From the IMG/VR virus record IMGVR_UViG_3300028569_002826, positions 1-34,523 of that record: a stretch of 34,523 nt of DNA. One strand, written 5' to 3'. The position numbers were made by a program, and so were the translations under genes. The notes beneath the pieces are model-generated. The model worked only from the letters and a program-made list of their open reading frames with translations. It had not been told where the DNA came from and did not search any database. Positions 7,188 to 24,868 of this stretch are shown here, piece by piece. Position 1 is the first letter of the stretch. Every line of letters starts with the position of its first letter. This DNA is from a virus.

Positions 7188-7234
7188 AACCCAAGGCAGA
7201 TTCGGCTCACGGCAAAAGTCTTGAACCAGAGGCC

Positions 7235-7253
7235 CTCTTCCTGGTGTGAAGAG
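7235..7253 (-). promoter_or_regulatory. Repeated TCACACCA hairpin, copy before the small membrane lysis gene
   Basis: Minus strand: CTCTTC, loop ACACCAG, GAAGAG (6-bp perfect stem, 7-nt loop), preceded by CGCCTCT. Shares the TCACACCA core and CGCCTC flank with the elements at 15706, 23786 and 24850. Its 3' arm runs into GAAGAGGG, a possible Shine-Dalgarno, 5 nt before the in-frame CTG at 7229. Confidence 0.55.
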
Positions 7254-7293
7254 AGGCGAACGGGGACATTCTCGCAGAATTCAGGGGCGGGCG

Positions 7294-9399
7294 CTACTCG
7301 TTTCCTGCGGGACGACGCTTATCAGACTTGCCCCCATCGGAGAGCATTTTGTACCGCGTCAGTAGGTTCGTAAGACGATCCACGTTCTGGGGATCGCCGA
7401 TGGCAGGGATTGAAAGCCTCGATGCTGCGGGCTTTGCCGCAGCAGGGGCAGAGGCCTTGATTGCCTGCTCAATTGGAACCACCCCGGACGCACCGCGCTG
7501 CCGGGCCGAGGCTTTCATCGACTCGATGACGTTCCTGTTGAGGGCCGAGTCGCGGATCGTCGCGACGAAATCCTTAAACATGTTGGACGCCCCAGTCCCC
7601 GACATCGAAAGCACGTCCGGGCCGTGGCGCTCACCAAGCTGGATGAGTTTCTCGAAATCCTCGAACTCTTTGGGATCGAGGAGCTGCTTTAGAACATCCT
7701 TTTTGCGGCGGAGCTCATTCATTGCCGACTTGAAACTGATCGAGTTGTCCCCGGTGCGGGACTTCTCAAGGATCTGATTTAACGCCGCGCCCTTCGCCCG
7801 CTTCATCGTCTCAGGGCTCAGGATCTTCTTCAGGCTCTCAATCTTCTTCGAGTCGCCACCCGAGATGAGCGATTCAAACACATTCTCCGGGGCAGCATTT
7901 TCGCCCACCGCTCGAGCAAAGGGAGCCCGCAGCTTCATTTGCGAGCTGATCGCCTTGTTCTTTTCGAGCAGCGCGCGAAGCTCCTGGGGCCCAAGCCGCT
8001 CGCCGTATTCGCGCGTGAGGCCACCCTTCAGGCCGCCGTAAAGCTCGCCCAAAAGGGTTTGATCCAGGGGAACCTGCCCCATAACCGGCTTGCGGCCGAG
8101 AGCCTTACCGAGCCCTTCGCGGACCTCATTGAGGACCTCATAGGACCCATCCGCCTTGCGAATCCGCTCGACGTAGTCCATGACCTGCTTTGCTTGGGCC
8201 TGAGCCACGTCATCGCCGCCGAGCGCGGCTTTCTGGGCCTTTGTGTAGACCGATTGCAGTGCCTTATCGACGCGACCCCGGGCCTTCTCCCCAAGGGCGG
8301 CACCCGGAACTTCTTTGTTAAGCTTCGAGTAGAACGCGCCGTCTTTTCCAAGATAGTTCGGCGTGGTGATCTCGTCTTGGATCATCTTGCCGACAGATCC
8401 ACGATCGAGCGCGACCCCGCCACCGGCGTTTCTGGCTTCATTCACCAATGCCGACTCGACAACATCGCGTCCCTTGTCAAAGGACTTGAGAGCTTCTTGG
8501 CCGAGCGGCCCTTCGCGGTAGTTCCGAGAGGCGCGCGAGACAAAGCTGCGCGGCCCGAACTCGACAGACTCACTCAACTGAGAGGGATCAATCCCCTTAG
8601 ATTCCGCAAACTTCTTGAGCTCGGCCCAGTCATCAGCCTGAGAGGGACGAACGATGCCCTTCAGAACGTCTAGGCCGTCGCCCGCCACCCGGCCCGTCGT
8701 CTTCACGATCGAGGCCGCAGTCTTCGCTCCAGGGATCGCATTGACGCCTTTCCCGAGAGCCTTACCGGCGGCCTCAAAAACCTCCCCTCCTGCTCCAGGA
8801 GGAAGTGGAGCGGAGCTTGCGCCGCGCGCGAGTCCTCGGCCGAATCCCTTCGCGCCATCGACAAGCCTAGAGCCTGCTAGTGAGAGGCCAGCGCCGAGAG
8901 CTGCGCCAGTGCCAGCGTCAAGCGCAGCCCCGCCGATATCGCCTTCTGTTAAATCGGCTTCCGACCCACCAAGCCCTGCGAGTCCGCCCGAGAGCGCACC
9001 TTTCCCCACCATAGCGGCGAGCTGTGCGCCCTTGCCTGCATTCAATACCGGCACAAGTAGAGAAGCTGCGCCACCCGCAAGCTGTCCACCAAGGTATTCA
9101 TCGGGATTGTCCTGCTCGGCCTTCTTGTAAGCCTTGCGAGACTCGTCCCGCTTGGTCTTGTAGAGGTCGATAAGTCCGCGCTCATCACCTTTCAACTTGT
9201 CGAATCCCGCCTCGACCCCACCCGTGATCTCATCCGCGAAGCCGAGCGAGGCCCCTTGGGCGGCGCCGCGAATACCAGACTCAAGGCCGGAGGTAGATTC
9301 GGTATCCTGCTCAGCATCCGGCGCGGAGTCCCAGTCAAATCCTGCGGCTTTTTTGGGCTCAGCGTCCGGGACGGCATCCCAATCAAAGTTGCCCACCAT
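7294..9399 (-). CDS. Large Ala/Gly-rich virion protein, probable internal (ejection) protein
   Basis: A 701-aa protein. It opens with two copies of an acidic FDWD motif (NFDWDAVPDAEP and GFDWDSAPDAEQ), then GAAQGASLGFADEITGG, a hallmark of large internal virion proteins in many podovirus-like phages. Residues about 100-240 are Gly/Ala-rich and weakly hydrophobic, suited to membrane insertion; the rest is helical and charged. Ends RYKMLSDGGKSDKRRPAGNE. Inferred role: stored in the capsid and ejected to form a conduit for DNA across the cell envelope. It is last of a run of four such genes. GAGGTAAGCA precedes the ATG. Confidence 0.75.
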   Translation of the reverse strand: MVGNFDWDAVPDAEPKKAAGFDWDSAPDAEQDTESTSGLESGIRGAAQGASLGFADEITGGVEAGFDKLKGDERGLIDLYKTKRDESRKAYKKAEQDNPDEYLGGQLAGGAASLLVPVLNAGKGAQLAAMVGKGALSGGLAGLGGSEADLTEGDIGGAALDAGTGAALGAGLSLAGSRLVDGAKGFGRGLARGASSAPLPPGAGGEVFEAAGKALGKGVNAIPGAKTAASIVKTTGRVAGDGLDVLKGIVRPSQADDWAELKKFAESKGIDPSQLSESVEFGPRSFVSRASRNYREGPLGQEALKSFDKGRDVVESALVNEARNAGGGVALDRGSVGKMIQDEITTPNYLGKDGAFYSKLNKEVPGAALGEKARGRVDKALQSVYTKAQKAALGGDDVAQAQAKQVMDYVERIRKADGSYEVLNEVREGLGKALGRKPVMGQVPLDQTLLGELYGGLKGGLTREYGERLGPQELRALLEKNKAISSQMKLRAPFARAVGENAAPENVFESLISGGDSKKIESLKKILSPETMKRAKGAALNQILEKSRTGDNSISFKSAMNELRRKKDVLKQLLDPKEFEDFEKLIQLGERHGPDVLSMSGTGASNMFKDFVATIRDSALNRNVIESMKASARQRGASGVVPIEQAIKASAPAAAKPAASRLSIPAIGDPQNVDRLTNLLTRYKMLSDGGKSDKRRPAGNE

Positions 9400-9402
9400 T
9401 GC

Positions 9403-10413
9403 TTACCTCGCCACACTTTCGAGTTTGCCGCCAGCCGCAAGGGCGTCTTGGAGCTGCTCCCGAGCGATCAACTTCCGTCGGCCATCTGGAGCAATCACCG
9501 TTACCATTGCCGGTTCTTCGCTCTTCGCTCCACCTCGGGTCCTGAGAGCGACGCCAGCCTGGAAATCCTTATCCACGTCCCCAGAGAACTTCTCTAAGTT
9601 TGACATGATCGAGTCTTGCCCGAGCACGCCATCCATCGCCAGCGGGTCCTCTGGGATAATCGCTTCCACGAGGTCGCGATCGCTTTGCGAAAGAACGCCC
9701 AACTTTGCCAGGTTTTTGTATTCGAGGAGAGCGTCTTTCGATAATTGTTTGCCGCGGCCTACGGCTTCTCGGTTGAAGAACTCTGCCCCGTATTTTTTAC
9801 GAAGGGCGACCATCTCCTGAAGCTTTCTGGAGAGTGACTGTTTAGATTGTGCAGCGTCCTTCAGTACTTTGGCGTCGTCTTTATTGCGCGCCGTTCCTAC
9901 TCCCGGTACTTCAAGCGCCTCTGCCTCCTGCTCAGCCTTGCGCTTGCGCTCGTCCATAGCGAATTGCTGGTACTCGGTCGGTCCCGATTCCTTCTGCGGG
10001 CGACCTTGCTCTAGGCGTGCCTTTTCGCGCACTAGCGCCATGTCGTTTTGATGTTGAGCGGCGCGGTCTTCCTTCTTCCCAAGAAGCTGGGCCATGTTCT
10101 CCTTGGCCTTCGCTTGAGCCTGCGACTTCGCCAGCCGGTACTTGTCGAGAGTGCCGCGCAGGCGCTCAGCGTCTTTTCCGTAGACATCAGCATTCTGTGT
10201 CGCAAGGCTGGGGCCTTGTGTGGGAGCGAACTTTCCAGTGAAGAACTCGCCGAAGGATCTGCGATTCGCCAAGTTATCAGCAACGGCGCCAAACAAGCGC
10301 GACTTCTGAGCGTCCGCCTTGGCCTTTTCAATGCCGGACGACATGCTCTCAAAGTCGGACTCAGGAACTTCTAATCCGACATCTTCTTCGTCTTCTAAGT
10401 AATTTTCCATCAT
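9403..10413 (-). CDS. Helical virion protein, probable internal/ejection protein
   Basis: 336 aa, acidic start (ENYLEDEEDVGLEVPESDFE), then almost continuous Lys/Glu/Gln-rich helix (about 60-200), and a compact C-terminal strand motif, MVTVIAPDGRRKLIAREQ, ending QDALAAGGKLESVAR. That C-terminal pattern (V-x-APDG followed by QLQDALAAGG) is common at the ends of phage structural proteins. It sits between two other ejection-type genes. Two adjacent ATGs (10413 and 10410): GGAGG is only 1 nt from the first and 4 nt from the second, so the second may be used. Confidence 0.7.
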   Translation of the reverse strand: MMENYLEDEEDVGLEVPESDFESMSSGIEKAKADAQKSRLFGAVADNLANRRSFGEFFTGKFAPTQGPSLATQNADVYGKDAERLRGTLDKYRLAKSQAQAKAKENMAQLLGKKEDRAAQHQNDMALVREKARLEQGRPQKESGPTEYQQFAMDERKRKAEQEAEALEVPGVGTARNKDDAKVLKDAAQSKQSLSRKLQEMVALRKKYGAEFFNREAVGRGKQLSKDALLEYKNLAKLGVLSQSDRDLVEAIIPEDPLAMDGVLGQDSIMSNLEKFSGDVDKDFQAGVALRTRGGAKSEEPAMVTVIAPDGRRKLIAREQLQDALAAGGKLESVAR

Positions 10414-10419
10414 GCCTCC

Positions 10420-11376
10420 TTAAGCGATGCTGCCCATGTCGCCGTAAGAACCGCCCACGGTCTCGATTTTCTTCTTTTTAGGATCAATCAAGTCGGTCCC
10501 TCCTGCCGCGGAAGAAGCGCCCCCGGTGTAGAGATCCGCCGCAAGCTTCGTGTTCGCGTTGCGAGCCGCCGTGTTCGCGGCGTTCTCGGCTGCGTAGCCT
10601 TGGGCTACCTGAGCGTTTGCTCCCGTAAGCCCATTGAGCTTCGTGACCTTGTTGCCGAAGGCCGTCTGACGATTGCCTTGGTTCACGCGCTGAGCCTCAT
10701 TGCGACCCTCGACATTCGAATTCACGATGTTTTGGCGATTGGTGAGGTTCCCAGCCTGTGCCGTGTTTCGCGCCGCCGTATTCGACTTGTTAAAGTCATT
10801 GATGATGTCCGAGTTGTTCGCTTCCGCGCGATAGTCCTGATCGCGAGCTCCGCCGATGGCATCAAGGTAGGCCTTTTGATACAGTGCCCGTTGCTGGGCC
10901 GCCGTTGCAGCCGTTTCCATGCTCGACTTGCGAGCCCTCTCGGCCGCTTCCTGGTTCCCGATTTCTTGGATGGCGTAGTCCATGCCGCTGCCGCCAAGAC
11001 CACGAGCGTTCATGTTCGAGATGACGGCCTCACGGCTTCCACGAGCCATAGATGCGGCATTGCTGCGCGCATCCTCAAAGCCAAGCTTATCAGCGTCAGA
11101 GAGGCCAGAATCAGCGAGAGACGCAAGCCTCTCAAGCGCCGCATCCTGGGCGGCGGTACGGACTCCGTTCTCTTCCACGAGGTCAAATTGGGCGTCCTCG
11201 GGATTGAAGTCCGCGAGATATTGCAGCTCCTCGGGCGTGTAGGTCTCAGCTCCCGGAACCTCCAGGCCATCCCAAAGGCCTTGGTTGTTGCGAAGCTGAT
11301 CCATTGCCTTGTCGGCGCTGTCGTCAAACAGGCCCCCAATGATCGGAATGCTCGAGGCCGCTTGTTTCACTCCCAT
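10420..11376 (-). CDS. Helical virion protein, probable internal/ejection protein
   Basis: 318 aa. It opens MGVKQAASSIPIIGGLFDDS, then an acidic helical part, then an Asn/Ala/Gln-rich low-complexity helical region (ARNTAQAGNLTNRQNIVNSN and neighbours) and a Gly/Ser-rich tail (GGASSAAGGTDL). It contains SNMNARGLGGSGMDYAI, typical of phage virion proteins annotated as DNA ejection or structural. The position between connector/nozzle and the larger ejection proteins supports a virion role. Ribosome-binding site GGAGGAG upstream of the ATG. Exact function unknown. Confidence 0.7.
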   Translation of the reverse strand: MGVKQAASSIPIIGGLFDDSADKAMDQLRNNQGLWDGLEVPGAETYTPEELQYLADFNPEDAQFDLVEENGVRTAAQDAALERLASLADSGLSDADKLGFEDARSNAASMARGSREAVISNMNARGLGGSGMDYAIQEIGNQEAAERARKSSMETAATAAQQRALYQKAYLDAIGGARDQDYRAEANNSDIINDFNKSNTAARNTAQAGNLTNRQNIVNSNVEGRNEAQRVNQGNRQTAFGNKVTKLNGLTGANAQVAQGYAAENAANTAARNANTKLAADLYTGGASSAAGGTDLIDPKKKKIETVGGSYGDMGSIA

Positions 11377-11395
11377 GACTATCTCCTCCCCTCGA

Positions 11396-12808
11396 TCAGC
11401 CGAGGTACTTGCTTAGGCCTTGTTTTCTGCGGTTGTAGTCGTCGTAAGCTGCGGCCTCGTCTCGACGCTTTGCTAGGTTGTTTCGCTCATTCTCAAGCGC
11501 TCGCTTCTGTGCGATACCCTGAGCCGTGCCGCCGAGGTCATTGAAGGAGGCGTCTTGCGAGAGGAGCCGATCCAGCTCGTCGTAGCGGGACTGCTCGCCA
11601 CCGCCCCAGGTCACGGCCTGGCGAGCGTTGCGCTCAGCGGGCGCGCCAAACGAGCCCACTTTCTCACCGGACCGGCCCAGCGCATCCATGATGTAGTTGA
11701 GGCGGTTACGCTGCTCCTTCGACGTTTCTCCGCCGATGTTGTCCGCGCTGAAGTCGCCATAGATGTCGCCCGCAGCCAAGTCGTCGGCATTGGCCTGCGC
11801 CGCTGCCGCACCGAGACCACCCCGGTAGTAGTCAGACCCTTCAGTGAGCGCACGCGTGAGCGCGTCCTTGTTTTGATTGAACTCGTTTTTGTATCCCTCG
11901 ATCTCGGAGTTTGCCTGCTCAGCAATAGGCGAAAGCCCCGAGAGCTTCGCAAGCGCGCTCTCTTTGACCCGGCCAAACTGGTCGTTCGTCGAATCAAGCT
12001 GGCGCTGAAGCGCGCGCTGCCCGGTTGTGATCCGGCCACCGGCCACGTCGTCATAAACGGAGTCCATGAGGCCACCGAATTGGCTCTCGTCGCTGAGGCC
12101 TTTCTGGTACTTCTGGATATTGTCCGACGGCTGGTAGTTCACGGGCCCGATGTTGAATTGCGAGCTGAGGCGGCTACGAATTCCCTGGACCGCGTCTTGA
12201 TAGTCCTGCGATGCGGGGTCGTACTTCGAGGCGCTCTCGATCATGTATTGTAAATTTGGCGCCCGAATTCCGCGCTGAGCATCCTTGCCAGGGTCGGCAA
12301 TTCCAACCTTTTGCCGCTGCTCAGGGGTCTGAATCACGCCGGTATCGGTCGTGGGCTGGAGATCGCGGAAGGTAGGCTTTTGCCCTCCCACCTGGCCGCC
12401 AGCTCCGCCCAGCTTGATCTTCTGATCCTGGCTACCCCACGACCCAGTATTGATCTTGTTCTCGGCAGCGAGTTTTGAGGCCTGCCCAATGGCGGCATCG
12501 GACTTCTGTTGAAGCCCGCTTTGCTCAGAGTCAAACGCCGAGTTGAATTTTCCCTCGAGCGCGTTCGCCGACCCCGTGTTCCCCTCGTTTGCCTTCATGT
12601 AGGCCTGAAGGTTCACGTGTCCCTGACGGCCGCCCTTGCCTGAGACCATGCCGAGAGCTGAGGCCCCGCCACTGCCGCCTGAGCCAGCCGGGCCCGAGGC
12701 AATCTGATTGCTCTCTCCTGCGCCAAGCTGCGTTCCGCCGCCTGCGCCAGTCTGAGAGTCGTCTTCTTCTTCACCGATGAGCTTTTCTTGACCCGTTACG
12801 ACAGCCAT
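11396..12808 (-). CDS. Gly/Ser/Gln-rich virion protein, probable ejection protein
   Basis: 470 aa. The first 60 residues are Gly/Ser-rich and disordered (GPAGSGGSGGASALGMVSGK), followed by a soluble helical body with repeated Gln/Asn/Ala and an Arg-rich C-terminus (RDEAAAYDDYNRRKQGLSKY). Composition resembles the adjacent 318-aa and 336-aa proteins, and together with the 701-aa protein they form a four-gene block in the place of ejection proteins (P22 gp7/gp16/gp20 or T7 gp14-16 type). GGGGGAGAAG precedes the ATG. Specific role unknown. Confidence 0.7.
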   Translation of the reverse strand: MAVVTGQEKLIGEEEDDSQTGAGGGTQLGAGESNQIASGPAGSGGSGGASALGMVSGKGGRQGHVNLQAYMKANEGNTGSANALEGKFNSAFDSEQSGLQQKSDAAIGQASKLAAENKINTGSWGSQDQKIKLGGAGGQVGGQKPTFRDLQPTTDTGVIQTPEQRQKVGIADPGKDAQRGIRAPNLQYMIESASKYDPASQDYQDAVQGIRSRLSSQFNIGPVNYQPSDNIQKYQKGLSDESQFGGLMDSVYDDVAGGRITTGQRALQRQLDSTNDQFGRVKESALAKLSGLSPIAEQANSEIEGYKNEFNQNKDALTRALTEGSDYYRGGLGAAAAQANADDLAAGDIYGDFSADNIGGETSKEQRNRLNYIMDALGRSGEKVGSFGAPAERNARQAVTWGGGEQSRYDELDRLLSQDASFNDLGGTAQGIAQKRALENERNNLAKRRDEAAAYDDYNRRKQGLSKYLG

Positions 12809-12821
12809 TCAGCTTCTCCCC

Positions 12822-13211
12822 CTATCCTTGCAGCACGAAGAGAGTGACATCGGACTGAGTCGAGCCCCCCTCGGCAAAGTTGATTTTGATTCCGATGCTT
12901 CCGCTTTGTTTTCGCGTGAGCTTCCATCCCGAGATCGTCCCACCGATGCCACTATCGAGAAACAGCACCCCCTGGACGCGCAGGTTCCGGTATTGTGGCA
13001 GTATCTCGAGCTCGATTCCATGCGTAAACTTCCGCTGATCTTGGAAACCGAGGAAGTTGTCCCGAAACGAGAGGTTATTTTTGAGAGCTTGGCCAATCAC
13101 GTCGATGAAGCGGTTGATCCCGCCGAGCAAGACGTTGAGCCACTTCGGGATGTCGCCGCCTGCGCGGTTTAGCTCTTCCATCGAGATACGGACGACCTCG
13201 GAGATTCTCAC
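12822..13211 (-). CDS. Virion-associated hypothetical protein (129 aa)
   Basis: A helical N-terminus (ELNRAGGDIPKWLNVLLGGI, then FIDVIGQALKNNLSFRDN) followed by a beta-rich C-terminal half (ELEILPQYRNLRVQGVLFLD, GWKLTRKQSGSIGIKINF, VTLFVLQG). GTG start overlapping the stop of the nozzle gene (GTGA). The location right after the nozzle suggests a tail accessory or plug protein. No family named with confidence. Confidence 0.65.
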   Translation of the reverse strand: MRISEVVRISMEELNRAGGDIPKWLNVLLGGINRFIDVIGQALKNNLSFRDNFLGFQDQRKFTHGIELEILPQYRNLRVQGVLFLDSGIGGTISGWKLTRKQSGSIGIKINFAEGGSTQSDVTLFVLQG

Positions 13212-15697
13212 TTGCCGATCCTCTCAGATACTTGAGTGAACTCGAGACCGAAGCCGCCAATCGAGAGCTTCTCGAAAGCGTTGTAGTGCCGCACGCCGAC
13301 ATTCAGGCGCGTGCAATATTGCTTGTTGCGGGGCACAACGCAGGCGTAGGCGTAGGGATCTCCGCCCCCGCCCCAGGCGAATTCACCCCAGGCGCCAGAG
13401 CCCCAGGCCGATCCTAGCGTCAGGAGGTCAAGCTCCTCCTCGTCCTCGTCATAGTTCGACGTGAACGTGGCAGATAGCTTCGTCGCAGTGTTTTGGGTCG
13501 GAGTGGAATCGGCAAATATTGCGCAGATCGACGCTTGCTTCACCATTCCGGGCGCGCCCGCGGTCCAGTTCATCCATTGGATGTCGTAGCCGACGTTCGG
13601 GAAGATGTTGGCAGCACCCGTCGTCCAGCTTGCGGGAGGGTCGAAGTCCATGGTCGCACGCCACCCTCCAGCAATGGGCACAGGCGTACCGATACAGATG
13701 TAGGTGTCGCCTTGCTTAATGGCCCATCCACGCTCAGGTGCGCCAGATGCGATACTGAAGTCCACCACGTCGTCATTGATCGCCATGATCGTGATGCTGA
13801 TCTCGGGATCTGCGTAGTCGGAATCGTCGAAGTCCTTCCGCTCGCGGTAGATAGCGCTCGCGCCCGGAATCGACATGAAAAGCTTGTCAACTGCGGGATT
13901 CACGACAGCGTCCAGGATGCCAAATCGCCACCGGGTCCACGTCTTCGTGAAGACGTTGAGCACGTAGGTTTGGTTCGGGCCCGTGTCGCTGGAGATCGTA
14001 GGAACGCTCAGCAGGTAGAAGCGCTCCGACTCGTAGGCCGCAGCCGCAGTCTTTGAGTCCAGAGTTGTGATCGTCAGCAGCTTCTTGATGTTCGGCTCGA
14101 TATCACGTGAAACAACTTCGACGCCGTTCTCGGAGATCGCCACCACGCCCTGGTTTGACAGCATGAAGACTTGGTTCTGTAGTACCACGACGGAATTGGG
14201 CGCCTTGCACGAAACCGTGAGATCCACGGGAGTTATCTCGAAGTTCGAGGCACTATTGCCAGACAGGCGGTAGACGCCCTCCTCCTTGATGATGATGAGC
14301 GAGCTCTGAAGGGGCGCAATCCGAAGGATGGCCTTGTTTCGCGGTCCCACGGGGTAGCGCGAGGCAATCGGCACCGCCTCAAGCTCACCGGGCTTTGAGA
14401 TCGCAAGGAAATTCGGGAGCTCAGCGTTCGAGCTCGTGGTCTTGTCGCTCGTCGCAGGCTGAATCGGGAGAGGCGGGAAGAACATGTCCTCAGCTCCAGC
14501 CGCTTGGGCCTGAGCCTGGAAGGCAGCGCCCCCGATAACCCGCTCTTCGATCATGATCTGGCCGGGCAAGTCTTCCGGGCCCGACAGGTAGAAGGCGTAA
14601 ACGGTCGTGTTCGTCGCGTAGCGGTTTATGACGCTCACGAGCGATCTGGCGGTCACGTCGATATCGACTGCGGCCACTCCCGTCGAAGAAATCTTAACCT
14701 CTCCGGCTGCGGCGTTCTCCGACGCCTTGAAGGTGTAAGTCGTTCCAGCAATTGTAATCTGGTCGTTCACGGCAAGGCCAGTGGTTCCGACGAGCGTCGT
14801 GAATAGACGCTGCTTTGTCTCGAGGTTTGAGAAAATCATGAACTGGTCGCGGTAGAGCGCGATGTCTTTTGCCAGCGGCGGCCGGTCGTTTGCCTGGGCG
14901 ATGCCTTCTTGAGAGGGAGAGGTGTAGAGTGTCTCTCCGCGAAGGTCGTCCACGACGTTGTCGGTTATGGTCACGTACCCAGCCGAGATGTTCGATGAGG
15001 TGACTTCGTGTTGATAGATCAGGCCCATCTCGTCGCCTGAGTCGTCGGACGAGGTGCCGCTAACTTGCGTCGTGCGGTAGAAATTCAGGTAGTCGCCGAC
15101 GTTGATGTCGGTGTTGAGATAAATCGTGAGCGACGTGTTTCGACTTGCGCCAGCAGCATTCACAACCCAGAGGCGCTGCGATGGATAGCCCCGAAGCACG
15201 TTGTCGTTTAGGTCGGTGCGCTCGATCATGACCCGGTAGGCGCACTGATAGTTATTTGCGAGAAAGCCGGACGAGCCGGTGAGCGTGTAGGAGGGGTCCA
15301 GGGCCCGCGGCACTCCTGCTAGGCGAGCTGCGGTGCCAGTCTGGTTTTGAAGCACCTGGATGCCCTGGTCGGTCGTAAAGTAGAAGTTCTTTTGCGCCTC
15401 GACGCCGTTCATGCGAACGCCGCTGGGAGGCGAGTAGGTACCAGAGTAGTCGGCAGCGGCGCCAGAGTTGTCGTAGGCGATCTTGTTGCCGTACTGGGCA
15501 ATCAGCACGTCGTCGTAAACGAGTGTGCGGCTCGGGACCGAGCTAAGCGAGAAGTAGAGACCCCGGCCACGGCGCGGCTCGATGATGTTTTCGCGAGTGA
15601 TGACAACGTCGTCGGCGCGCGAGAGCGCACCTTTCCCCACCGTAAGCGGGTTGTACTGCGTCACGAGCCCGAGGCACCGTGTGACGGTGTCCTGCAC
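13208..15697 (-). CDS. Tail nozzle / stabilisation protein
   Basis: 829 aa, almost entirely beta-structured. It begins VTRCLGLVTQYNPLTVGKGA, followed by the DVVITRENIIEPRRGRG region, the usual start of nozzle proteins of short-tailed phages (P22 gp10, T7 gp12 type). The centre contains NKAILRIAPLQSSLIIIKEE and GVYRLSG, a motif I associate with beta-propeller nozzle proteins. It forms the distal tube below the connector through which DNA leaves. It lies directly downstream of the connector gene. The start is GTG 15697, 8 nt after the hairpin at 15706-15722. The family is likely; the precise homologue is not determined. Confidence 0.8.
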   Translation of the reverse strand: MQDTVTRCLGLVTQYNPLTVGKGALSRADDVVITRENIIEPRRGRGLYFSLSSVPSRTLVYDDVLIAQYGNKIAYDNSGAAADYSGTYSPPSGVRMNGVEAQKNFYFTTDQGIQVLQNQTGTAARLAGVPRALDPSYTLTGSSGFLANNYQCAYRVMIERTDLNDNVLRGYPSQRLWVVNAAGASRNTSLTIYLNTDINVGDYLNFYRTTQVSGTSSDDSGDEMGLIYQHEVTSSNISAGYVTITDNVVDDLRGETLYTSPSQEGIAQANDRPPLAKDIALYRDQFMIFSNLETKQRLFTTLVGTTGLAVNDQITIAGTTYTFKASENAAAGEVKISSTGVAAVDIDVTARSLVSVINRYATNTTVYAFYLSGPEDLPGQIMIEERVIGGAAFQAQAQAAGAEDMFFPPLPIQPATSDKTTSSNAELPNFLAISKPGELEAVPIASRYPVGPRNKAILRIAPLQSSLIIIKEEGVYRLSGNSASNFEITPVDLTVSCKAPNSVVVLQNQVFMLSNQGVVAISENGVEVVSRDIEPNIKKLLTITTLDSKTAAAAYESERFYLLSVPTISSDTGPNQTYVLNVFTKTWTRWRFGILDAVVNPAVDKLFMSIPGASAIYRERKDFDDSDYADPEISITIMAINDDVVDFSIASGAPERGWAIKQGDTYICIGTPVPIAGGWRATMDFDPPASWTTGAANIFPNVGYDIQWMNWTAGAPGMVKQASICAIFADSTPTQNTATKLSATFTSNYDEDEEELDLLTLGSAWGSGAWGEFAWGGGGDPYAYACVVPRNKQYCTRLNVGVRHYNAFEKLSIGGFGLEFTQVSERIGK

Positions 15698-15705
15698 TGC
15701 CTAGC

Positions 15706-15722
15706 CTCTCATGGTGTGAGAG
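15706..15722 (-). promoter_or_regulatory. Repeated TCACACCA hairpin, copy before the nozzle gene
   Basis: Minus strand: CTCTCA, loop CACCA, TGAGAG (6-bp perfect stem), preceded by CACCTCG. The 3' arm GAGAGG is the only purine-rich Shine-Dalgarno candidate and ends 8 nt before the GTG, so the stem would hide it. Confidence 0.6.
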
Positions 15723-15754
15723 CGAGGTGCGATGTTGTGGGTTAGCGGACTGGG

Positions 15755-16726: not shown

Positions 16727-16735
16727 AGAACCCCC

Positions 16736-16915: not shown

Positions 16916-16924
16916 AAGCCCTCC

Positions 16925-17577: not shown

Positions 17578-18283
17578 AGACTGCCCTCCTGAATGGATTC
17601 TTCTCGTCGCGGTAGTAGTCGCGCACCCAGTTCTCACGGGGGCCGCGGCGCTCGATGTGTTTTCTGATTCCCCAGCGCACAAGCCAGCCTCCCCACCAGG
17701 GGAGCTGCACGCGGCTTAAAAACTTGATTCGAAGGTCGCTAAGATTCCAATTCCGTGAAATCGAAAGCCCAACTGCCAGCCAGAGAAGACTAAAGGGAGA
17801 GGGCTCCTCACCTGCTGCCAACTCAAGGATTGCCCAGTCGCCTGGTTGAAGCATCTCAGTCCACGACCAACGTCCCGGATGCCGCACGTTGTACTGAAAC
17901 CAGTTGGCACGGCCGTACCTGAGTATCGAATGGGCATATCCTGAATAGTAGTGATGCGAGAGGATCGCCTGCGCGATCACGTTGTCATGCGACTGGCCAA
18001 TGTAGTCAGTGCCACCACGGTGTCCAGGCCACCGGCCATGGAGTCCGGTGATAATCTCAGTGAGCGCCATGTGACGAGAGAAAGCCTTGAAACCCTCAAG
18101 CGACTTTCCTTCAGGGTCAAGCTCTAGCAGTCCTTGCGCGAGTGCAAAGCTTGCGTTCTCGTTCTTGGCGCGCATCGGGTACTTGGGATCAAGCGGCGGC
18201 GCAATGTTGCCCGGCTCATCTTCAAACAAACCCCCGCCATCGGGAGCAATGTAGCGCTCGACGAAGGCGGAGAGGTGGTCCAT
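17564..18283 (-). CDS. Hypothetical protein between fibre and lysis genes (239 aa)
   Basis: Not recognised with certainty. It is mostly helical and Trp-rich with YIGQSHDNVIAQAILSHHYY, a SHDN-type motif that I recall in a group of phage tail-region hypothetical proteins, later RHPGRWSWTEMLQPGDWAIL and a hydrophobic stretch SPFSLLWLAVGLSIS. The C-terminus is basic (WVRDYYRDEKNPFRR). No signal peptide. The His/Asp-rich SHDN segment could be an active or metal site, but this is speculation. The ATG overlaps the fibre gene's TAA (TAATG), and the end overlaps the next GTG gene by 14 nt. Confidence 0.65.
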   Translation of the reverse strand: MDHLSAFVERYIAPDGGGLFEDEPGNIAPPLDPKYPMRAKNENASFALAQGLLELDPEGKSLEGFKAFSRHMALTEIITGLHGRWPGHRGGTDYIGQSHDNVIAQAILSHHYYSGYAHSILRYGRANWFQYNVRHPGRWSWTEMLQPGDWAILELAAGEEPSPFSLLWLAVGLSISRNWNLSDLRIKFLSRVQLPWWGGWLVRWGIRKHIERRGPRENWVRDYYRDEKNPFRRAVCGMA

Positions 18284-20217
18284 TAGTTTCCGACCCTCTC
18301 GACGTTGAAATAAGTATTTGCAGTAGTTCCCGAAATTGTGAGTGTGCTTGCCGAGTTGTTTCCAAGGCCGTATAGGAAGATTTCAACGTAATCCCCAGCA
18401 TTCAACTGAAGCGTCGTGCTTCCATTGAACGCGTTGATTGTCGTTGCGGCAGATGTTCTGTACCCAAACAGACGAGCGGACGCTCCGTTTTTGTAGAGGT
18501 AAAGCCCGTAATCAGATGCGAGCACGTTAGCTGAGGCGAGCAGGACTGCGGAGCTTATGCGGTACTTACCCGATACGGGTGCAGTGAATCTGCTGTTTGC
18601 TGAGCTAAATGATCCGGTCGTGTCAAACACTGCGGAAGAAAAAGCTACCTTAACGAAACTATTATTCGTCGCGATCCCTGTTTGGTTAGACCCTCCAAGT
18701 GTTGCATCCATCGCGACTGTTTCACTCGCCGCGATCTGCGACGGGCCGGAGATACGCGAGATTGAGAAGTAGTTGTCAACAACACTACCTCCGACATTCA
18801 ATGCTCCACCTGAGTTTTGGAAAACTTGAATCCCTACCGTGTCCCCTGCATTGAACAAATATTCTGTTGCACCATTCAAAAACGTACCTGCAGAAGCCGT
18901 AGGGTCGAATATGTATGCCAGTGTGCGGATATTGCTTCCGTTTACACGCAGACGAACCTCACGACCGTTCGTCGAGCTTGCGGCAAAACTTACTTGAGTC
19001 GTAATCCTATACCAGCCGGGGACTGGAATCGTGTAGAGACTTGTACCGGTATTCCAAGCCCCGTGCGTGTCGCTGATTGCGGCATCGAACGCTACGAGTG
19101 TTCCGGTGCTGTCTGGAATTGACTGAGTGGCTGCGCGGCCTGTAGTCATTGCCACGACGCGAGTGTCCGTCTCAGACGACATCTGCACTTGAGACGACCA
19201 TCCGGTGATGGGGACGAGGAAAGATCCGCCAAAAACCGTGTTGTTGGCCCAAGCCGTCCCTAACGTGCCATTGAAATAATTATCTGCCTGTTGGCTAATG
19301 ATTGCGACCGTTGTTGGAGAACCTGTGGCTACGAAAATATTGCCTGACCATGGGGTTTTAGATGCGGTAAGCGCCCCCACAACAGAGTTGTTTACGGCTC
19401 TAGTTATGTCCATAGAAAGGCCGCTTGGCAGCGAAATAGAAACTGGTGATCCAGAATTTGTTCCAGAAGTAACTGTAAACATGACTTCAAGAGAATCACC
19501 TACGCGCCGATACTTGGCGATAGATGCAGAAACAGTTCCTAGGCCAACGTATGTCGGAGTGTAGCTCTGCCAGTCCGTGACTGGCGTTCCCTGCGTGATG
19601 ATCTGCGGAGAGACGCGGACGTCGGATAGCGCCATCGTGTAGGCGGATGCCGACGTGCTGCCAACGTGGATACAGAGGCGGTAGCTGGTCGAGTTAGAGG
19701 CTGCCTGGAAAGTGCCTCTCCAACTTTGTTGAACAGTGGTGCTTTCAATCGAAGAAGGGGCCGGTTGAATCAAAATCGAGTTGGTAACATCGTAGATCCA
19801 GACCGAAAGATCGCTCGTGGCGTAAGTCCCGCTGACTACCTCGTAGGGGAATGATATTTGTAGAACTTGCCCCTTGTCGGCATTGTCGATTGTGATGTCA
19901 TTTGAAACCCCTTGGCCCTGACGGTTAGCCGCGTCTTTGACCAAGTTGAATTCAGACGACCCACGCAACGGAGTTGTGGTCGAGCGAGAGATGGCGAAGG
20001 TCGGTGATCCGCCAGTGCAGTCAACAGGAGAAGCTCCCGCCGCGTCGGCATAAGCAGCCCAGCCTGCCGTGCTCCGCTGAGCAAAGGCGTTCTTGATGTA
20101 GTTTCGCTGGGAGCTTGCTCCGTTGCTGAGAAAGTCTGAATCAAGGTATCTTTGGCTTTGTGTTGAAGCACTAGCGACAGAACCTACAAGTAAAAGCAGT
20201 CCAAGAATCTTTTTCAT
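18283..20217 (-). CDS. Secreted fibre-like protein with C1q-like repeats
   Basis: A 644-aa protein starting with a clean Sec signal peptide (MKKILGLLLLVGSVASAS, cleavage after ASA/S-type site). It has three Cys (two around VDCTGG and YRLCIHV). Residues about 210-330 form a fibre-type beta repeat (WQSYTPTYVGLGTVSASIAK is a motif common in phage tail fibres). Two related jelly-roll (C1q/TNF-like) domains follow: one with PVPGWYRITTQVSF and FNAGDTVGIQVFQN, the other with APVSGKYRISSAVLL and LNAGDYVEIFLYG, ending in NTYFNVERVGN. Likely receptor-binding or surface-adhesion protein. A signal peptide is unusual for a virion protein (see findings). Coupled by TAATG to both neighbours. Confidence 0.75.
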   Translation of the reverse strand: MKKILGLLLLVGSVASASTQSQRYLDSDFLSNGASSQRNYIKNAFAQRSTAGWAAYADAAGASPVDCTGGSPTFAISRSTTTPLRGSSEFNLVKDAANRQGQGVSNDITIDNADKGQVLQISFPYEVVSGTYATSDLSVWIYDVTNSILIQPAPSSIESTTVQQSWRGTFQAASNSTSYRLCIHVGSTSASAYTMALSDVRVSPQIITQGTPVTDWQSYTPTYVGLGTVSASIAKYRRVGDSLEVMFTVTSGTNSGSPVSISLPSGLSMDITRAVNNSVVGALTASKTPWSGNIFVATGSPTTVAIISQQADNYFNGTLGTAWANNTVFGGSFLVPITGWSSQVQMSSETDTRVVAMTTGRAATQSIPDSTGTLVAFDAAISDTHGAWNTGTSLYTIPVPGWYRITTQVSFAASSTNGREVRLRVNGSNIRTLAYIFDPTASAGTFLNGATEYLFNAGDTVGIQVFQNSGGALNVGGSVVDNYFSISRISGPSQIAASETVAMDATLGGSNQTGIATNNSFVKVAFSSAVFDTTGSFSSANSRFTAPVSGKYRISSAVLLASANVLASDYGLYLYKNGASARLFGYRTSAATTINAFNGSTTLQLNAGDYVEIFLYGLGNNSASTLTISGTTANTYFNVERVGN

Positions 20218-21554
20218 TAGTTACTCCTCGAAACGAGTGCGAAGCGGTCATCAGTTGAGAGGTACACAAAGCAGGCGGATTCATACTGGCCGAGAGTTAC
20301 GTCGCCGTTACCGACAAACCCCTTGGCCGAGTCTGCGACAGCAATCGTCACAGTGTTCGTGTCAGAGGTGCCAGTAAGGCAGATGAGCGATCTGTCCTGC
20401 GGTGCCGAGCTTCCGAAAGGAGTTGATGAGAGAGTGACGGCACCTGACGCCCCCTGCACTCGCCAGTGCTGAAGCTTCTGCGCGTTGCTTGTGCCAATCG
20501 CAATCGACCCGGCACCGGCTAGAGATACAGAGTTGTTGGCAGAGAGACCGGCCGTGGCGTCAGACCACGAGAGAACTCCTGAGCCGTCAGTGGTGAGAAC
20601 TTGGTTTGCTGAGCCCGTTCCAGTGGGGAGCGTGAGGGCGTAAGCTCCGGAAAGCGTAGGAGCCTGAAGAGTGATCTTATCTGTTCCTGCTCCTGGGTCC
20701 TCAACTAAAAGCGACGTGGTCGCAGTCACGCTTGCAAATGTGGGGCTAGAAGAAGTGGCGATGTTTTGAGGAGTTGAAAGTGTGATGCTACCTGCCCCGT
20801 TGGTGACGGTGATCTGATCTGTCGTGCCGGTAATGCCTGCCAAGGTGTAGTTCGTTCCGTTACCGATGGGAAGGAAGCCGTTGCTCGGAGTAGTCGAGAG
20901 GCCGGTGCCACCGTTTGCGACAGGAAGAATAGAAGACCCAACTGCGTCGGTATCTGCGAGGTCAATTGAGCCAAACCCGACCGTGCCAGATGCCCGGCGC
21001 AGGATCTCTCCATCGGCGGAAGATGTCGCAAGACTCGGGACACTGCTCGCATCGGTTACAAGTGCCCCACTCGCGCCCGAGAGCGTTGTGAGAAGCCCGG
21101 CCGAAGTCGTGGAGACGACCCTTTCGCCCGTGAGAGCGGTGCTCGGAAAGAGCGGATTGCCGTTAAACGTGAGCTGATTCGAAGAATTGACGGTGAGGAG
21201 CAAGTTCCCGCTGTTTGCGGCGTTGCGCCACCCGATCGATTCAGCGTTCGCAAGACGAAAGAGCCCAGCGCCAGACGGATTCGAGGATCTGGTCGAGAAG
21301 TAGGCCGACTTCAGGCCGTAGCTGGAGCCGAAATCCGCGTCAGCCGTCAGTGTGAACGCACCGCCCGACTTCTGAAGCGTTCCGCTCGATGTGGCCTGAA
21401 TCCAGGACGTGACAACGTCGCCCCAACCCCGCTCGTTCTTCTGCGGGATCGAGTACGCCGATCCGTTCATATAGACGGTAACAGCGGCCCGCGCCGGTCC
21501 CCCAAAGACTAGGCTCCCAAGGAAGAGAAGGACAATTCCTAAAAAGCGTTTCAT
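20217..21554 (-). CDS. Secreted fibre-like repeat protein
   Basis: 445 aa from the ATG at 21554 (GGAGG 6 nt upstream; a longer frame to 21590 has none). Signal peptide MKRFLGIVLLFLGSLVFGG, continuing PARA, then beta repeats poor in charge and rich in Ser, Thr and Gly: SSTALTGERVVSTTSAGLLT, ANGGTGLSTTPSNGFLPIGN, TGSANQVLTTDGSGVLSWSD. These NGGTG and QVLTTDGSGVLSW units are widespread in tail-fibre shafts and in bacterial surface proteins of several lineages. Two Cys occur near the end (LICLTG, SACFVY). It sits between the decoration-like protein and the other secreted fibre. Inferred shaft partner of the 644-aa protein. Confidence 0.7.
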   Translation of the reverse strand: MKRFLGIVLLFLGSLVFGGPARAAVTVYMNGSAYSIPQKNERGWGDVVTSWIQATSSGTLQKSGGAFTLTADADFGSSYGLKSAYFSTRSSNPSGAGLFRLANAESIGWRNAANSGNLLLTVNSSNQLTFNGNPLFPSTALTGERVVSTTSAGLLTTLSGASGALVTDASSVPSLATSSADGEILRRASGTVGFGSIDLADTDAVGSSILPVANGGTGLSTTPSNGFLPIGNGTNYTLAGITGTTDQITVTNGAGSITLSTPQNIATSSSPTFASVTATTSLLVEDPGAGTDKITLQAPTLSGAYALTLPTGTGSANQVLTTDGSGVLSWSDATAGLSANNSVSLAGAGSIAIGTSNAQKLQHWRVQGASGAVTLSSTPFGSSAPQDRSLICLTGTSDTNTVTIAVADSAKGFVGNGDVTLGQYESACFVYLSTDDRFALVSRSN

Positions 21555-21586
21555 CTTTTCCTCCCGGCGCAGGTGCCGACTCAGCG

Positions 21587-22435
21587 TCAAGCGACGCCGA
21601 ATTTGTAGGTCGTGGAAGTGCCGTCGGTGCCGCCAGTGAGGCGCCCGCTGCCAGAAACAGCGATCCCACTAGAGGAATCCACCCCTTCGGCGATCGTATT
21701 CGTGTTTCCTTCGACGCCTTCTTGCTTTGCCGTTACGGTGCAAACTCCGGCAGCCGAAGAAGCCGTGACTTGTGCGTTAACCAAGGCACTTGCAGATCCA
21801 ACAATGGCCGAAGCCAGGCTTGCAGCACTAAGATCAACAGACCCGGCTCCGCCAGCCATAGCACCGGCAGCGACCGTGACCTGGGCCGTCGAACCAGTCC
21901 CGGAAACGGTGATAGCGACAAGTGCCGCAGCAGGTGCAGAGGCCTCAACCGCCGTCTTGACCTGCGTTGCGGTCGATACGCCACTCTGAATCTGCACCGA
22001 GATCGCAGATCCGGTCACAGTTACGACTTCCGATCCAGCGGTCCCGCCAGTCGTATATTCGATCGTGATGCTGTTTCCGGCCACGCCGCGAAGTACGGCG
22101 GTGTATGTGAGGTCCTGGACGATCTTCGTCGCCTTGGCGCCCACGTTCCATTGGTTTCCTGTTGCGCCGCTCGCCACGGCCGTGAAGGTCACGCCATTGA
22201 CGAGAATCGTGTCGCTAGGCTCTCCGGTCTTTGTGAACGTAACCGTCGCCGATGCCGCAACGGCGTTCACGATAGAGACGACCGTCGCCTGGTATAGACC
22301 AAGGGCAAACTTCGTTATGGCCGCCTTGAGTCTGGCCACGAACTTATTCGGATCGCTGGATGCAGCTTTCATTTTTGTTGCAAGGTCGTTCGAGGTGATG
22401 CTCGGCAGCTCGACCTCGATGCGAAACTTCGACAT
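21587..22435 (-). CDS. Probable virion surface (decoration-like) protein
   Basis: 282 aa from the ATG at 22435, where AGGAGG sits 8 nt upstream in a hairpin loop; a longer frame to 22468 adds only 11 residues. A helical N-terminus (NDLATKMKAASSDPNKFVAR) is followed by beta-sandwich repeats: LRGVAGNSITIEYTTGGTAG, GSAISVQIQSGVSTATQVKT and QEGVEGNTNTIAEGVD. The G-V-A-G-N-S-I-T and GVSTATQVKTA patterns are common in phage head-decoration and tail beta domains. Lying immediately after the major capsid gene, it could decorate the head. Function inferred from position and fold. Confidence 0.65.
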   Translation of the reverse strand: MSKFRIEVELPSITSNDLATKMKAASSDPNKFVARLKAAITKFALGLYQATVVSIVNAVAASATVTFTKTGEPSDTILVNGVTFTAVASGATGNQWNVGAKATKIVQDLTYTAVLRGVAGNSITIEYTTGGTAGSEVVTVTGSAISVQIQSGVSTATQVKTAVEASAPAAALVAITVSGTGSTAQVTVAAGAMAGGAGSVDLSAASLASAIVGSASALVNAQVTASSAAGVCTVTAKQEGVEGNTNTIAEGVDSSSGIAVSGSGRLTGGTDGTSTTYKFGVA

Positions 22436-22436
22436 G

Positions 22437-22456
22437 TTTTCTCCTCCTAGAGAAAA
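22437..22456 (-). promoter_or_regulatory. Hairpin presenting the Shine-Dalgarno of the decoration-like gene
   Basis: Minus strand: TTTTCTC, loop TAGGAG, GAGAAAA, then one nt and ATG 22435. A perfect 7-bp stem holds the ribosome-binding site in its loop and its 3' arm. Different sequence from the TCACACCA hairpins but in the same kind of place. Confidence 0.5.
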
Positions 22457-22504
22457 GGCCGAGTACAAGCCCTCAGAGAGAGCTCACACCCGGCCCGTTT
22501 CAAA

Positions 22505-23779
22505 TTAGGTCGTGGGGACGAGGGACGAGATGTAGCCCGACTTCGCCAACGCCTCGGTGCAGCTCGATTGGTGAGTGAAGAGCCGCGACTCGATGCCCAT
22601 GTTGCTCGGCAGGTCGAAGAAGATCTTGCCGCCGGTCACGGGGTTGACGCCCGTGATGTCGGCTGCGCCAACGCGCTTCCAGTACTTCTTCGGCTTGGCC
22701 AGGCAGTAGCCGTAGCCTTCCCAGACCATAGGGTGAGCCTTGATCGTCAGGTCGCCTGCCGACGTGGTGAAGGTGATCTCCTTCACGCCGACTTTGACCT
22801 TGTCGCTTCCCAGCTTGTCGCGTTGAACCGCGACGATGTCGGTGACGAGGTCGTCAAAGTTCTTGTTGTTGATGTAGAAGTTGGCGCCTTCCATGAGTCC
22901 GCCGCGCGACATGATCGCCGACGCCAGACGCTTCGCCTTGTCGAAGTCGAGGGGACCAGACGACGCCGGAGCGTAGCTGATACCCTTCCACTGCGAGTAA
23001 AGCGTCACGTCGATGTTCTGGATGTTGCCGCTCGTGGCGCTCAGCATCTTGTGGATGCCGTCCATTTGGTTCCCGTAGGAGCCCGCGTGGTAGACCGACA
23101 GCGTGCCGGAGCCCAGGGCCGAGATGAGGGCCGTGATACCGGTAGCCGTTCCGGAAACTGTTATCTTCTTGTTGTCGAAATCGACGGAATCGACCGAGAA
23201 GATGGCGTTTGCGCCAGACGAGATGAGCGTGGAGCCGCTGTAGAAGTTGATCGAATCGCTCTGAGCACCGGCCCAAATGCCTTCGGCCCATTTCGCAGGC
23301 AGGATCGCTACCGTTTGATGAGTGGCATCAACCGCTGTACCGGCGCCGGTCGTGTCGGCAATGCCGGAGCCGCCGTAGAGACACTGAAGCTCAAGGAAGC
23401 GACGCAGCGACATCTGCATACCTTCGAAGAAGAAGGGAGCAGCGCGCTCGAAGCTGTTGCGGCTCGACGAGAGCTTGGCGGCGTCTTCGTTGGAGAGCCA
23501 ATCACGCAGGGCCATCTGATAGCCGTACACTTTCGACTTCACTTGAGAGCCAACGATCACGTCACCCAGCGCAAAAGCGCCAGCGGTGCCGTCGCCCTTA
23601 GCGAAGGTCACGCCTTTGGGGACGTTCGTGCGGACTGCCATTTCGAAGTAGTCACCAAGGGCTTCGCCCTTCGAAAACTCGATGTCCTTTTGGATCACGG
23701 CAAAGTCAGGGACCAGATTGGGCACGCCATCGGGGCCGAATACGGCCTTAGCGAGGGACGTGAGATTTTCTGCGGCCAT
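22505..23779 (-). CDS. Major capsid protein
   Basis: 424 aa, without an obvious propeptide, HK97-type fold inferred from size and position after scaffold. Features: N-terminal helix (ENLTSLAKAVFGPDGVPNLV), the E-loop-like region around TNVPKGVTFAKGDGTAGAFA, spine-helix-like FERAAPFFFEGMQMSLRRFL, and a C-terminal domain with ANFYINNKNFDDLVTDIVAV and NPVTGGKIFFDLPSNMGIES. A beta insertion (about 180-235, FSVDSVDFDNKKITVSGTAT) resembles insertion domains of short-tailed phage capsids. The ATG follows the hairpin at 23786-23808 by 6 nt and has no clear Shine-Dalgarno, odd for the most abundant protein. Confidence 0.88.
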   Translation of the reverse strand: MAAENLTSLAKAVFGPDGVPNLVPDFAVIQKDIEFSKGEALGDYFEMAVRTNVPKGVTFAKGDGTAGAFALGDVIVGSQVKSKVYGYQMALRDWLSNEDAAKLSSSRNSFERAAPFFFEGMQMSLRRFLELQCLYGGSGIADTTGAGTAVDATHQTVAILPAKWAEGIWAGAQSDSINFYSGSTLISSGANAIFSVDSVDFDNKKITVSGTATGITALISALGSGTLSVYHAGSYGNQMDGIHKMLSATSGNIQNIDVTLYSQWKGISYAPASSGPLDFDKAKRLASAIMSRGGLMEGANFYINNKNFDDLVTDIVAVQRDKLGSDKVKVGVKEITFTTSAGDLTIKAHPMVWEGYGYCLAKPKKYWKRVGAADITGVNPVTGGKIFFDLPSNMGIESRLFTHQSSCTEALAKSGYISSLVPTT

Positions 23780-23785
23780 TTGAGA

Positions 23786-23808
23786 TCGCTTTCTTGGTGT
23801 GAAAGCGA
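23786..23808 (-). promoter_or_regulatory. Repeated TCACACCA hairpin, copy before the capsid gene
   Basis: Minus strand: TCGCTTTC, loop ACACCAA, GAAAGCGA (8-bp perfect stem), preceded by CCGCC. It ends 6 nt before the capsid ATG. The stem differs from the other copies on both arms yet pairs perfectly, while the TCACACCA core is kept. Confidence 0.65.
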
Positions 23809-23836
23809 GGCGGGGTTATTTAAATATTAAGATTGG

Positions 23837-24844
23837 TTAGCGGCGGTAGCGCGCGTCCCATTCTTCTTGGGTCAATGGTTTGTTTTGGTCTCGGCTTGCT
23901 GCTGGAGTCGCAGGGCCTTTAGATGCGGGGTCCGAGGAGCCGAACTGGAGGGCGCCGCCAGAGCGGAGCTTGCTCACGTCGAACTCTCTCAGAGCCTTGA
24001 GAGACGTTTCCCCGAGCAATTCATGGATACCCTGAGGGTCCAAGCTGCCGAGAAACTTTTGGACCGAAGTCCGGTAGACGCCTTTGATTTTCTCAGCGGC
24101 CTCAACTGCTGTCAATGGGCGCTCGATCTTTCCAGCCTTCGCCGCGCGAATGGACTGCTGCATTTTTGCAGCGATGAGACCGACAGCGTAAGGATCGCTC
24201 ACAGGAAGACCGGAGGCTTTGAACGCTTCGCCAATTTGCTGATCGTAAGACTGAAGTGCGCGCGTCTCTTCGATCTGTCTTGCGCGAGCCACTGCGAGAC
24301 TGCGCTGCTCTTCGCGCGTTGCCTCGTCGGCTGCGACCTTTGCCTCGAGCTCCATGATCCGGCGTTGCTCGGGGCTCATCTCCATGAGCTCGATCTTTTT
24401 TTGCAGCCGCTCTTCAGCAAGGCGATCAAGGGAGTCTTTATCGAGGCCTTCCTTCTCAAGCGATTCCCAAGGGTTTTGCTTGAGCGATTCGCGGAAGCGA
24501 CGCTCGGCCTCGAACTCTTTGCGGGCCTGGGCTGCCTCGCGGGCTTTGGCCTGCATGGATTTCTCCATGCCTTTGACGAGAGCCGCATCTTCAGCCGAGA
24601 GCTTCAGAACGCGGGAGCCGACCTTTACCTCAACTAAGCCACTGGCCTCAGAGGTGCTCGCCTCACCCGCCTGGGCCTGGCCTTCCTGGCCAAATAATTG
24701 CTGGCCCTCAGAAGTCTGTGAGCCTTGCTGTGACGACGAATCGAAACCCGAGCTTGCCTGCCCGGAACTCTCAGATCCGCCGCCTTGGGACGTTGCTCCG
24801 GTGGACGCTGCCGCGCCCGTGGATACAGATGCAGTACCTTCCAT
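23837..24844 (-). CDS. Capsid scaffolding protein
   Basis: 335 aa. The first 70 residues are Ser/Gly/Gln-rich and disordered (ATSQGGGSESSGQASSGFDS); then VEVKVGSRVLKLSAEDAALV, followed by a long charged coiled coil (about 95-205, QAKAREAAQARKEFEAERRF). The end is basic (QNKPLTQEEWDARYRR), as expected of a scaffold tail that binds the capsid. The position between portal and capsid is standard. The start is ATG, with GAGAGGG 3-4 nt upstream formed by the 3' arm of the hairpin at 24850-24868. Confidence 0.85.
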   Translation of the reverse strand: MEGTASVSTGAAASTGATSQGGGSESSGQASSGFDSSSQQGSQTSEGQQLFGQEGQAQAGEASTSEASGLVEVKVGSRVLKLSAEDAALVKGMEKSMQAKAREAAQARKEFEAERRFRESLKQNPWESLEKEGLDKDSLDRLAEERLQKKIELMEMSPEQRRIMELEAKVAADEATREEQRSLAVARARQIEETRALQSYDQQIGEAFKASGLPVSDPYAVGLIAAKMQQSIRAAKAGKIERPLTAVEAAEKIKGVYRTSVQKFLGSLDPQGIHELLGETSLKALREFDVSKLRSGGALQFGSSDPASKGPATPAASRDQNKPLTQEEWDARYRR

Positions 24845-24849
24845 TTACC

Positions 24850-24868
24850 CTCTCATTTGGTGTGAGAG
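24850..24868 (-). promoter_or_regulatory. Repeated TCACACCA hairpin, copy before the scaffold gene
   Basis: Minus strand: CTCTCA, loop CACCAAA, TGAGAG (6-bp perfect stem), preceded by CGCCTCA. The 3' arm GAGAGGG is the Shine-Dalgarno, ending 3-5 nt before the ATG, so folding would hide it. Confidence 0.6.

Follow-up and report, generated by a model that had tools for sequence, protein, structure and literature searches.

From one long transcript, tailed phages must produce the proteins for capsid, scaffold, tail and lysis at widely differing levels, and how temperate phages beyond a few models set the amounts of their late proteins is, to our knowledge, mostly unknown. The question arises for a virus contig of 34,523 bases (IMGVR_UViG_3300028569_002826; the whole stretch is called the window in the following), in which the octamer TCACACCA recurs at hairpins directly in front of late genes. 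Six copies were present in the window against 0.66 expected, a number reached in none of 100 shuffles. The four copies on the minus strand, which holds the major genes identified in the window, are located in intergenic spacers and inside perfect hairpins with stems of 6-8 bp. Taken together, the sequence comparisons support an RNA element that is selected for its structure and located where translation of several late genes starts. We propose that the four hairpins are copies of a single element acting in cis as RNA, placed at the ribosome-binding sites of the scaffold, capsid, nozzle-like and lysis-cassette genes.

Hairpins at four late-gene starts

All four hairpins were found where the initial annotation had placed them, each with the octamer across the junction of 5' arm and loop and with a CCTC flank. 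In register, CCTC and at most one further base are followed by a 5' arm of five bases, then by ACACCA with one more base (three more in the scaffold copy), and finally by the complementary arm. The scaffold hairpin, CCTC-A-CTCTCA/CACCAAA/TGAGAG (24850-24873, minus strand; octamer 24865-24858), ends 5 nt before ATG 24844. The capsid hairpin, CC-TCGCTTTC/ACACCAA/GAAAGCGA (23786-23810, minus; octamer 23802-23795), ends 6 nt before ATG 23779; its minimal stem is the most stable among the four (-9.5 kcal/mol). The hairpin of the nozzle-like gene, CCTC-G-CTCTCA/CACCA/TGAGAG (15706-15727, minus; octamer 15719-15712), is placed 8 nt before GTG 15697, and that of the lysis cassette, GCCT-CTCTTC/ACACCAG/GAAGAG (7235-7257, minus; octamer 7249-7242), 5 nt before an inferred CTG at 7229. 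A spacing of 5-8 nt, as annotated initially, thus stands for the first three genes; the lysis gene fits only if its open reading frame (ORF), which encodes two transmembrane segments, starts at CTG 7229. No ATG, GTG or TTG was present at the hairpin spacing of this ORF, the frame is open from the CTG just after GAAGAGGG, and from the sequence CTG 7229 is probably the start. Counted from the octamer, the start codon follows after 13 nt (scaffold), 15 nt (capsid), 14 nt (nozzle-like) and 12 nt (lysis ORF).

The 3' arm had been taken for the Shine-Dalgarno sequence in at least two of the hairpins. An overlap of both was observed for the scaffold, nozzle-like and lysis genes, but not for the capsid gene: its 3' arm GAAAGCGA is not a Shine-Dalgarno sequence, and masking of this sequence is therefore not a feature common to all four. 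The start region of the capsid gene is partly paired in the predicted folds, with no Shine-Dalgarno sequence in the stem. Among the 37 gene leaders examined, only four carry the hairpin element, hence the description as a 'phage-wide' operator was too broad. The octamer copy at 31991 lies inside a coding region, as had been noted, and is not part of the octamer-hairpin family.

Perfect hairpins of at least 6 bp sharing an octamer at the loop form a family of four in the window, the largest such family in 200 shuffles having two members. Around a planted TCACACCA, a stem of at least 6 bp arose by chance in 0.8 % of contexts. The element was also the best motif of the window in an independent motif search across all spacers, with four of four occurrences intergenic. 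For a comparison of the four stems, the scaffold copy was aligned without its two extra loop bases. Pairing holds in all 20 cells; of the five base pairs, two are invariant and three are changed on both sides, while sliding the partner columns lowered the pairing from 100 % to 55-83 %. As three of the five pairs change on both sides, the pairing is kept and not the sequence; the pattern suggests selection on pairing, though four sequences are few. The loop length differs among the copies, therefore an RNA fits better than a dimeric DNA site. With double-sided changes, a near-fixed distance to the start and a variable loop length, the initial proposal of a selected RNA structure was strengthened, and we consider it likely that the element acts at the RNA level.

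A complementary loop in the presumed late leader

A further octamer copy at 29534, on the other strand, had been described as lacking the stem. This description did not hold. On the minus, transcribed strand the site reads TGGTGTGA (29541-29534), and its TGGTGT forms exactly the loop of a hairpin at 29557-29520, GGGGUCAUC.C.GGUGUU[UGGUGU]GACGCC.A.GGUGAUCCU (loop in brackets, 29541-29536), for which RNAfold predicts 15 pairs and -21.6 kcal/mol. The hairpin belongs to the presumed leader of the late operon inside a divergent intergenic region of about 240 nt (29477-29714). This region is bordered on one side by a small ORF on the plus strand (29715-29912) and on the other by the gene that comes first, ahead of the terminase genes, with its probable start at ATG 29476. 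Because five pairs are G-U, the fold is much stronger as minus-strand RNA than as its complement (-21.6 versus -13.1 kcal/mol). TGGTGT occurs just three times on the minus strand. A hairpin as stable as that of the leader was closed by 0.05 % of random positions, and a TGGTGT hairpin of this kind appeared in one of 400 shuffled genomes at -21.6 kcal/mol or below and in five of 400 at -18 kcal/mol or below.

The leader loop UGGUGU is the perfect complement of ACACCA in the loops of all four hairpins, and the invariant octamer is the very stretch that is complementary to the leader in each of them. Total complementarity to the leader amounts to 8 nt for the nozzle-like and lysis genes, 9 nt for the capsid gene and 10 nt for the scaffold gene. 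Both loops are essentially open in the interaction prediction. Predicted opening costs are 0-1.1 kcal/mol for three targets; the best mode of the scaffold hairpin comprises 10 nt with partial opening. When all 37 gene leaders are ordered as partners of the leader RNA with these costs included, those with the hairpin take ranks two to five.

Stems that vary yet pair, an invariant octamer and the octamer complement in the leader loop would be explained together by a kissing gate. We tentatively favour, with somewhat less than even confidence, a translational gate at the four late genes that is read by the modelled loop-loop (kissing) pairing with the late leader RNA. The stem would close over or next to the Shine-Dalgarno sequence or start region and present ACACCA in an open loop. 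The reader of the element would most likely be an RNA: the late-operon 5' leader (29557-29520, minus), kissing each loop via UGGUGU. Acting in trans or within the late transcript, this leader could tie translation of the four genes to the onset of late transcription. The pairing may repress, by a stabilised hairpin over the ribosome-binding site, or activate, by opening the 5' arm, which holds the first two octamer bases. We infer the pairing itself, its sign (block or open) and the transcription of the leader as drawn. A regulon made of RNA only, in which a single leader hairpin controls the translation of the scaffold, capsid, nozzle-like and lysis genes through kissing hairpins at their ribosome-binding sites, is a possibility that we regard as rather doubtful; the CCTC flank may leave room for a protein.

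Several observations weigh against pairing with the leader. The CCTC flank is not accounted for by it, and the folding z-scores of the scaffold and lysis gene leaders are overall unremarkable. The top-ranked interaction partner of the leader RNA is an unrelated 10-nt match at another gene. An 8-nt complement alone was found in about 21 % of shuffles, and the complementary site was examined post hoc, with the octamer already known. No promoter for the leader was recognised. A CCT at equal spacing (CCTnnnnnTCACACCA) also accompanies the plus-strand reading of the 29534 site, which a DNA motif would lead one to expect. Finally, hairpins and leader were present, with the same sequences, in near-identical contigs only and in no other relative; loop and anti-loop show no covariation, because only near-identical genomes share both loops.

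Relatives and competing explanations

Portal homologues at 80 loci were retrieved by profile searches. Three of the loci are near-identical contigs, with a DNA identity of about 99.3-99.8 % over long stretches, and in the rest the portal proteins are 31-40 % identical; relatives of intermediate distance were not found among them. A lack of conserved paired arms at orthologous positions in related phages had been named as a refutation in the initial annotation. The hairpins were indeed lacking in the approximately 80 distant relatives and kept only in the near-identical contigs, a result that counts against the proposal at this distance but is not decisive with no relatives in between. Leaders of 53 capsid, 65 scaffold and 10 nozzle genes were collected from the relatives and from CP017838, a distant Silvanigrella phage, with gene starts set by the longest frame, so that some leaders may be shifted. 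Hairpins near the start occurred in them at about the shuffle rate (given in brackets): in 6 of 53 capsid (11.6 %), 2 of 65 scaffold (3.9 %) and 1 of 10 nozzle leaders (4 %). No more than three leaders approached the octamer to within a single mismatch, no TCACACCA hairpin was found in CP017838, and scaffold, capsid and nozzle leaders taken from the same relative had no comparable motif in common. Motif scans of IMG/VR and 84,980 genomes returned only the three same-species contigs and single matches at chance level; the element is therefore not traceable by sequence and, within the collections covered, appears confined to this lineage. A search for recurrent loop families in the relatives was discarded, as loose settings gave noise on both strands.

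Bacteriophage T4 gp43 acts at its own operator, and a protein could read the element here as well. This would be a translational operator whose CCTC flank and ACACCA loop are recognised by a phage or host protein that represses or activates the four genes. Flank and loop are conserved around a stem of freely varying sequence, the element sits at the start codon, and the flank has no role in loop-loop pairing. We nevertheless regard such an operator as unlikely: a candidate RNA-binding protein was not identified, and the complementary leader hairpin is not predicted by it.

Improbable as well, though deserving some weight in view of the relatives, is a transcriptional role as late promoters or activator sites, the GC-rich counterpart of the elements TTAATACTTTA, TAATACTTATAAT and TTAATAAGTAGTA of the relatives. 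Several relatives have recurrent intergenic motifs in the late region (TTAATACTTTA with five of five occurrences intergenic, TTAATAAGT likewise five of five, furthermore TAATACTTATAAT and TTAATAAGTAGTA), single-element late promoters in a similar layout are known in phiEco32 (PMC8948821), and the fifth octamer copy in the divergent region lies on the other strand. However, the elements of the relatives are located about 13 to 200 nt from the start and without a hairpin, compared to 12-15 nt in the window, where the stems covary and the loop length varies. If transcription began downstream of the element, hardly any leader would remain. Neither a sigma factor nor a T7-type polymerase family was found in the window, the polymerase search having had no positive control. 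For a late promoter of the phiEco32 type in particular, Sigma70_r2/r4_2 gave no match in the window, and the element is GC-rich and hairpin-bound, not AT-rich.

Nearly all genes of the late region overlap or stand less than 20 nt apart, except at the four hairpin spacers and the spacer after the capsid gene. Five late junctions have a gap of more than 35 nt; hairpins were found in four of them, and the fifth has a terminator-like stem. Such a distribution would suit a passive mRNA element, i.e., a 5' stabiliser, a processing site or a spacer hairpin that sets the translation rate without a regulator; the invariant octamer and the complementary leader loop are left unexplained by it, and we hold it to be quite improbable. 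A chance resemblance among four unrelated spacers has next to no probability: the copies are just four and from a single lineage, but octamer excess, shared hairpins and double-sided changes were all outside the shuffles.

Further candidates were rejected. Intrinsic terminators are ruled out by the missing U-run after the four hairpins, and the variable spacer and covarying arms speak against a dimeric DNA-binding site. For hairpin promoters of the N4 type, used by a virion RNA polymerase, the window has no giant polymerase, its largest ORF coding for 829 amino acids (aa) in a record that may be incomplete. A search of Rfam gave no match in the window above the gathering score, those to HOTTIP_3 and AsdA being far below. 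The stretch CGCTCTcACACc resembles what we take to be the boxA/nut sequence of lambda; such an identity is not claimed, and the stem would bury a boxA at this place.

Genome setting and known RNA systems

The genome is that of a temperate podovirus-like phage. Genes for an integrase, RecT, RusA and a DnaD-like replication protein were found, and the podovirus-like late module comprises small and large terminase, portal, scaffold, capsid, SU10-type adaptor and nozzle-like protein. Named phages are only very distant kin: a portal search returned two records, and the proteins of CP017838 have 23-33 % identity to those of the window. The next five genes are all on the minus strand. The scaffold-like protein gene (23837-24844) has homologues in CP017838 and the relatives, and the major capsid protein gene (22505-23779) has relatives' homologues in syntenic position. 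The gene for the nozzle-like or tail virion protein (13208-15697; PHROG 3287, 511 and 8094) is located after the SU10-adaptor-like gene. The holin-like ORF with two transmembrane segments (7011-7229, inferred CTG start) encodes 72 aa, LVQDFCREPNLPWVLSLGSVVL...FFWRKKS. The first gene before the terminase genes (29231-29476), whose probable ATG 29476 is preceded by AAGGAGG, encodes a small membrane-type protein of 81 aa. Neither of the two small proteins matched a Pfam family. A terminator-like hairpin lies upstream of the presumed leader (29689-29671, minus); the number of such sites is about as expected by chance.

Directly after the capsid gene (22500-22453, minus), a strong stem of about -26.8 kcal/mol is followed by TTTTCT and resembles a terminator; for the gene that comes next, ATG 22435 is the probable start rather than TTG 22468. 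Near the end of the portal gene (25298-25334, minus), CCTCCTGG is fully complementary to the Shine-Dalgarno sequence CCAGGAGG of the gene 24884-25297 and also part of a competing hairpin, a possible translational coupling switch. The gene of a DUF6745 protein contains tandem repeats (31494-31698; QVRAQVGAQV...). The near-identical contigs end within this region or align there at several offsets, hence the copy number of the repeat may vary or the assembly breaks there.

Among the relatives, genome-specific recurrent elements were present mostly or only in late intergenic spacers (L133, L134, L150, L167, L165, L190/L132, L158, L198, L162 and CP017838, alias L125). These elements, TTAATACTTTA, TAATACTTATAAT, TTAATAAGTAGTAtnGTAAG, TTAACAGATA, TTAACAAATA, ATTTTGGCACTT and GTAACACTTATAGTTA, look like a diversifying family of late promoters. 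Long capsid leaders between scaffold and capsid genes in L165, L167, L162 and L192 contain a shared-looking segment GACG-n-GCTATCC without an Rfam match, a possible structured capsid leader RNA. The portal protein of L132:44-2644 has a long intein-like insertion (CLKKGTKVLMYDGS... to ...FTVTHN). In CP017838, several ORFs and leaders occur twice, at about 21-26 kb and 30-35 kb and about 9 kb apart, perhaps by duplication in the assembly.

The window element shares a feature with each of several known systems; membership is established in none. Plasmid copy-number RNAs such as CopA/CopT exert antisense control by kissing loops. Like in such antisense RNAs, two accessible loops of perfect complementarity (UGGUGU/ACACCA) are predicted here; in contrast to them, one leader hairpin would face four targets in the same late operon. 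In OxyS-fhlA (PMC2946933) and RNAIII-coa (PMC2837412), the loop of one RNA pairs with another loop that lies at or close to the ribosome-binding site. IsrK of the prophage Gifsy-1 serves both as short RNA and as part of an mRNA and binds and activates its own read-through transcript, but without repeated hairpins at ribosome-binding sites (PMC4825925). The late T4 genes e, soc and 49 have hairpins over their Shine-Dalgarno sequence or start, a position that the window hairpins may share. The one of gene e is described as depending on transcript length, its 5' part being left out by late promoters; a shared loop or complementary leader is not described for them (PMC3014915). The SAS/ESAS repeats of cluster K mycobacteriophages occur where translation starts in a subset of the genes of one phage, about half of them with an inverted repeat and a variable spacer; their arms have a consensus sequence, they are confined to the non-structural half of the genome, and their function is unknown (PMC3203893). 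The window element is likewise a conserved asymmetric repeat right at the start codons of a gene subset, with the octamer 12-15 nt before four of them. Unlike SAS/ESAS, it belongs to late structural and lysis genes and has free stems and an invariant loop; the SAS sequence GGGATAGGAGCCC and the 17-bp consensus arms were not found, the arms here being short and without consensus. The late promoters of phiEco32 and 7-11 resemble the short recurrent intergenic elements before late genes of the relatives; being DNA promoters without a hairpin or fixed distance to the start codon, they differ from the window element (PMC8948821).

If the gate exists as proposed, a compact and testable RNA circuit would set the ratios of late proteins and delay lysis in this phage, and one phage leader RNA could address several dispersed ribosome-binding sites.

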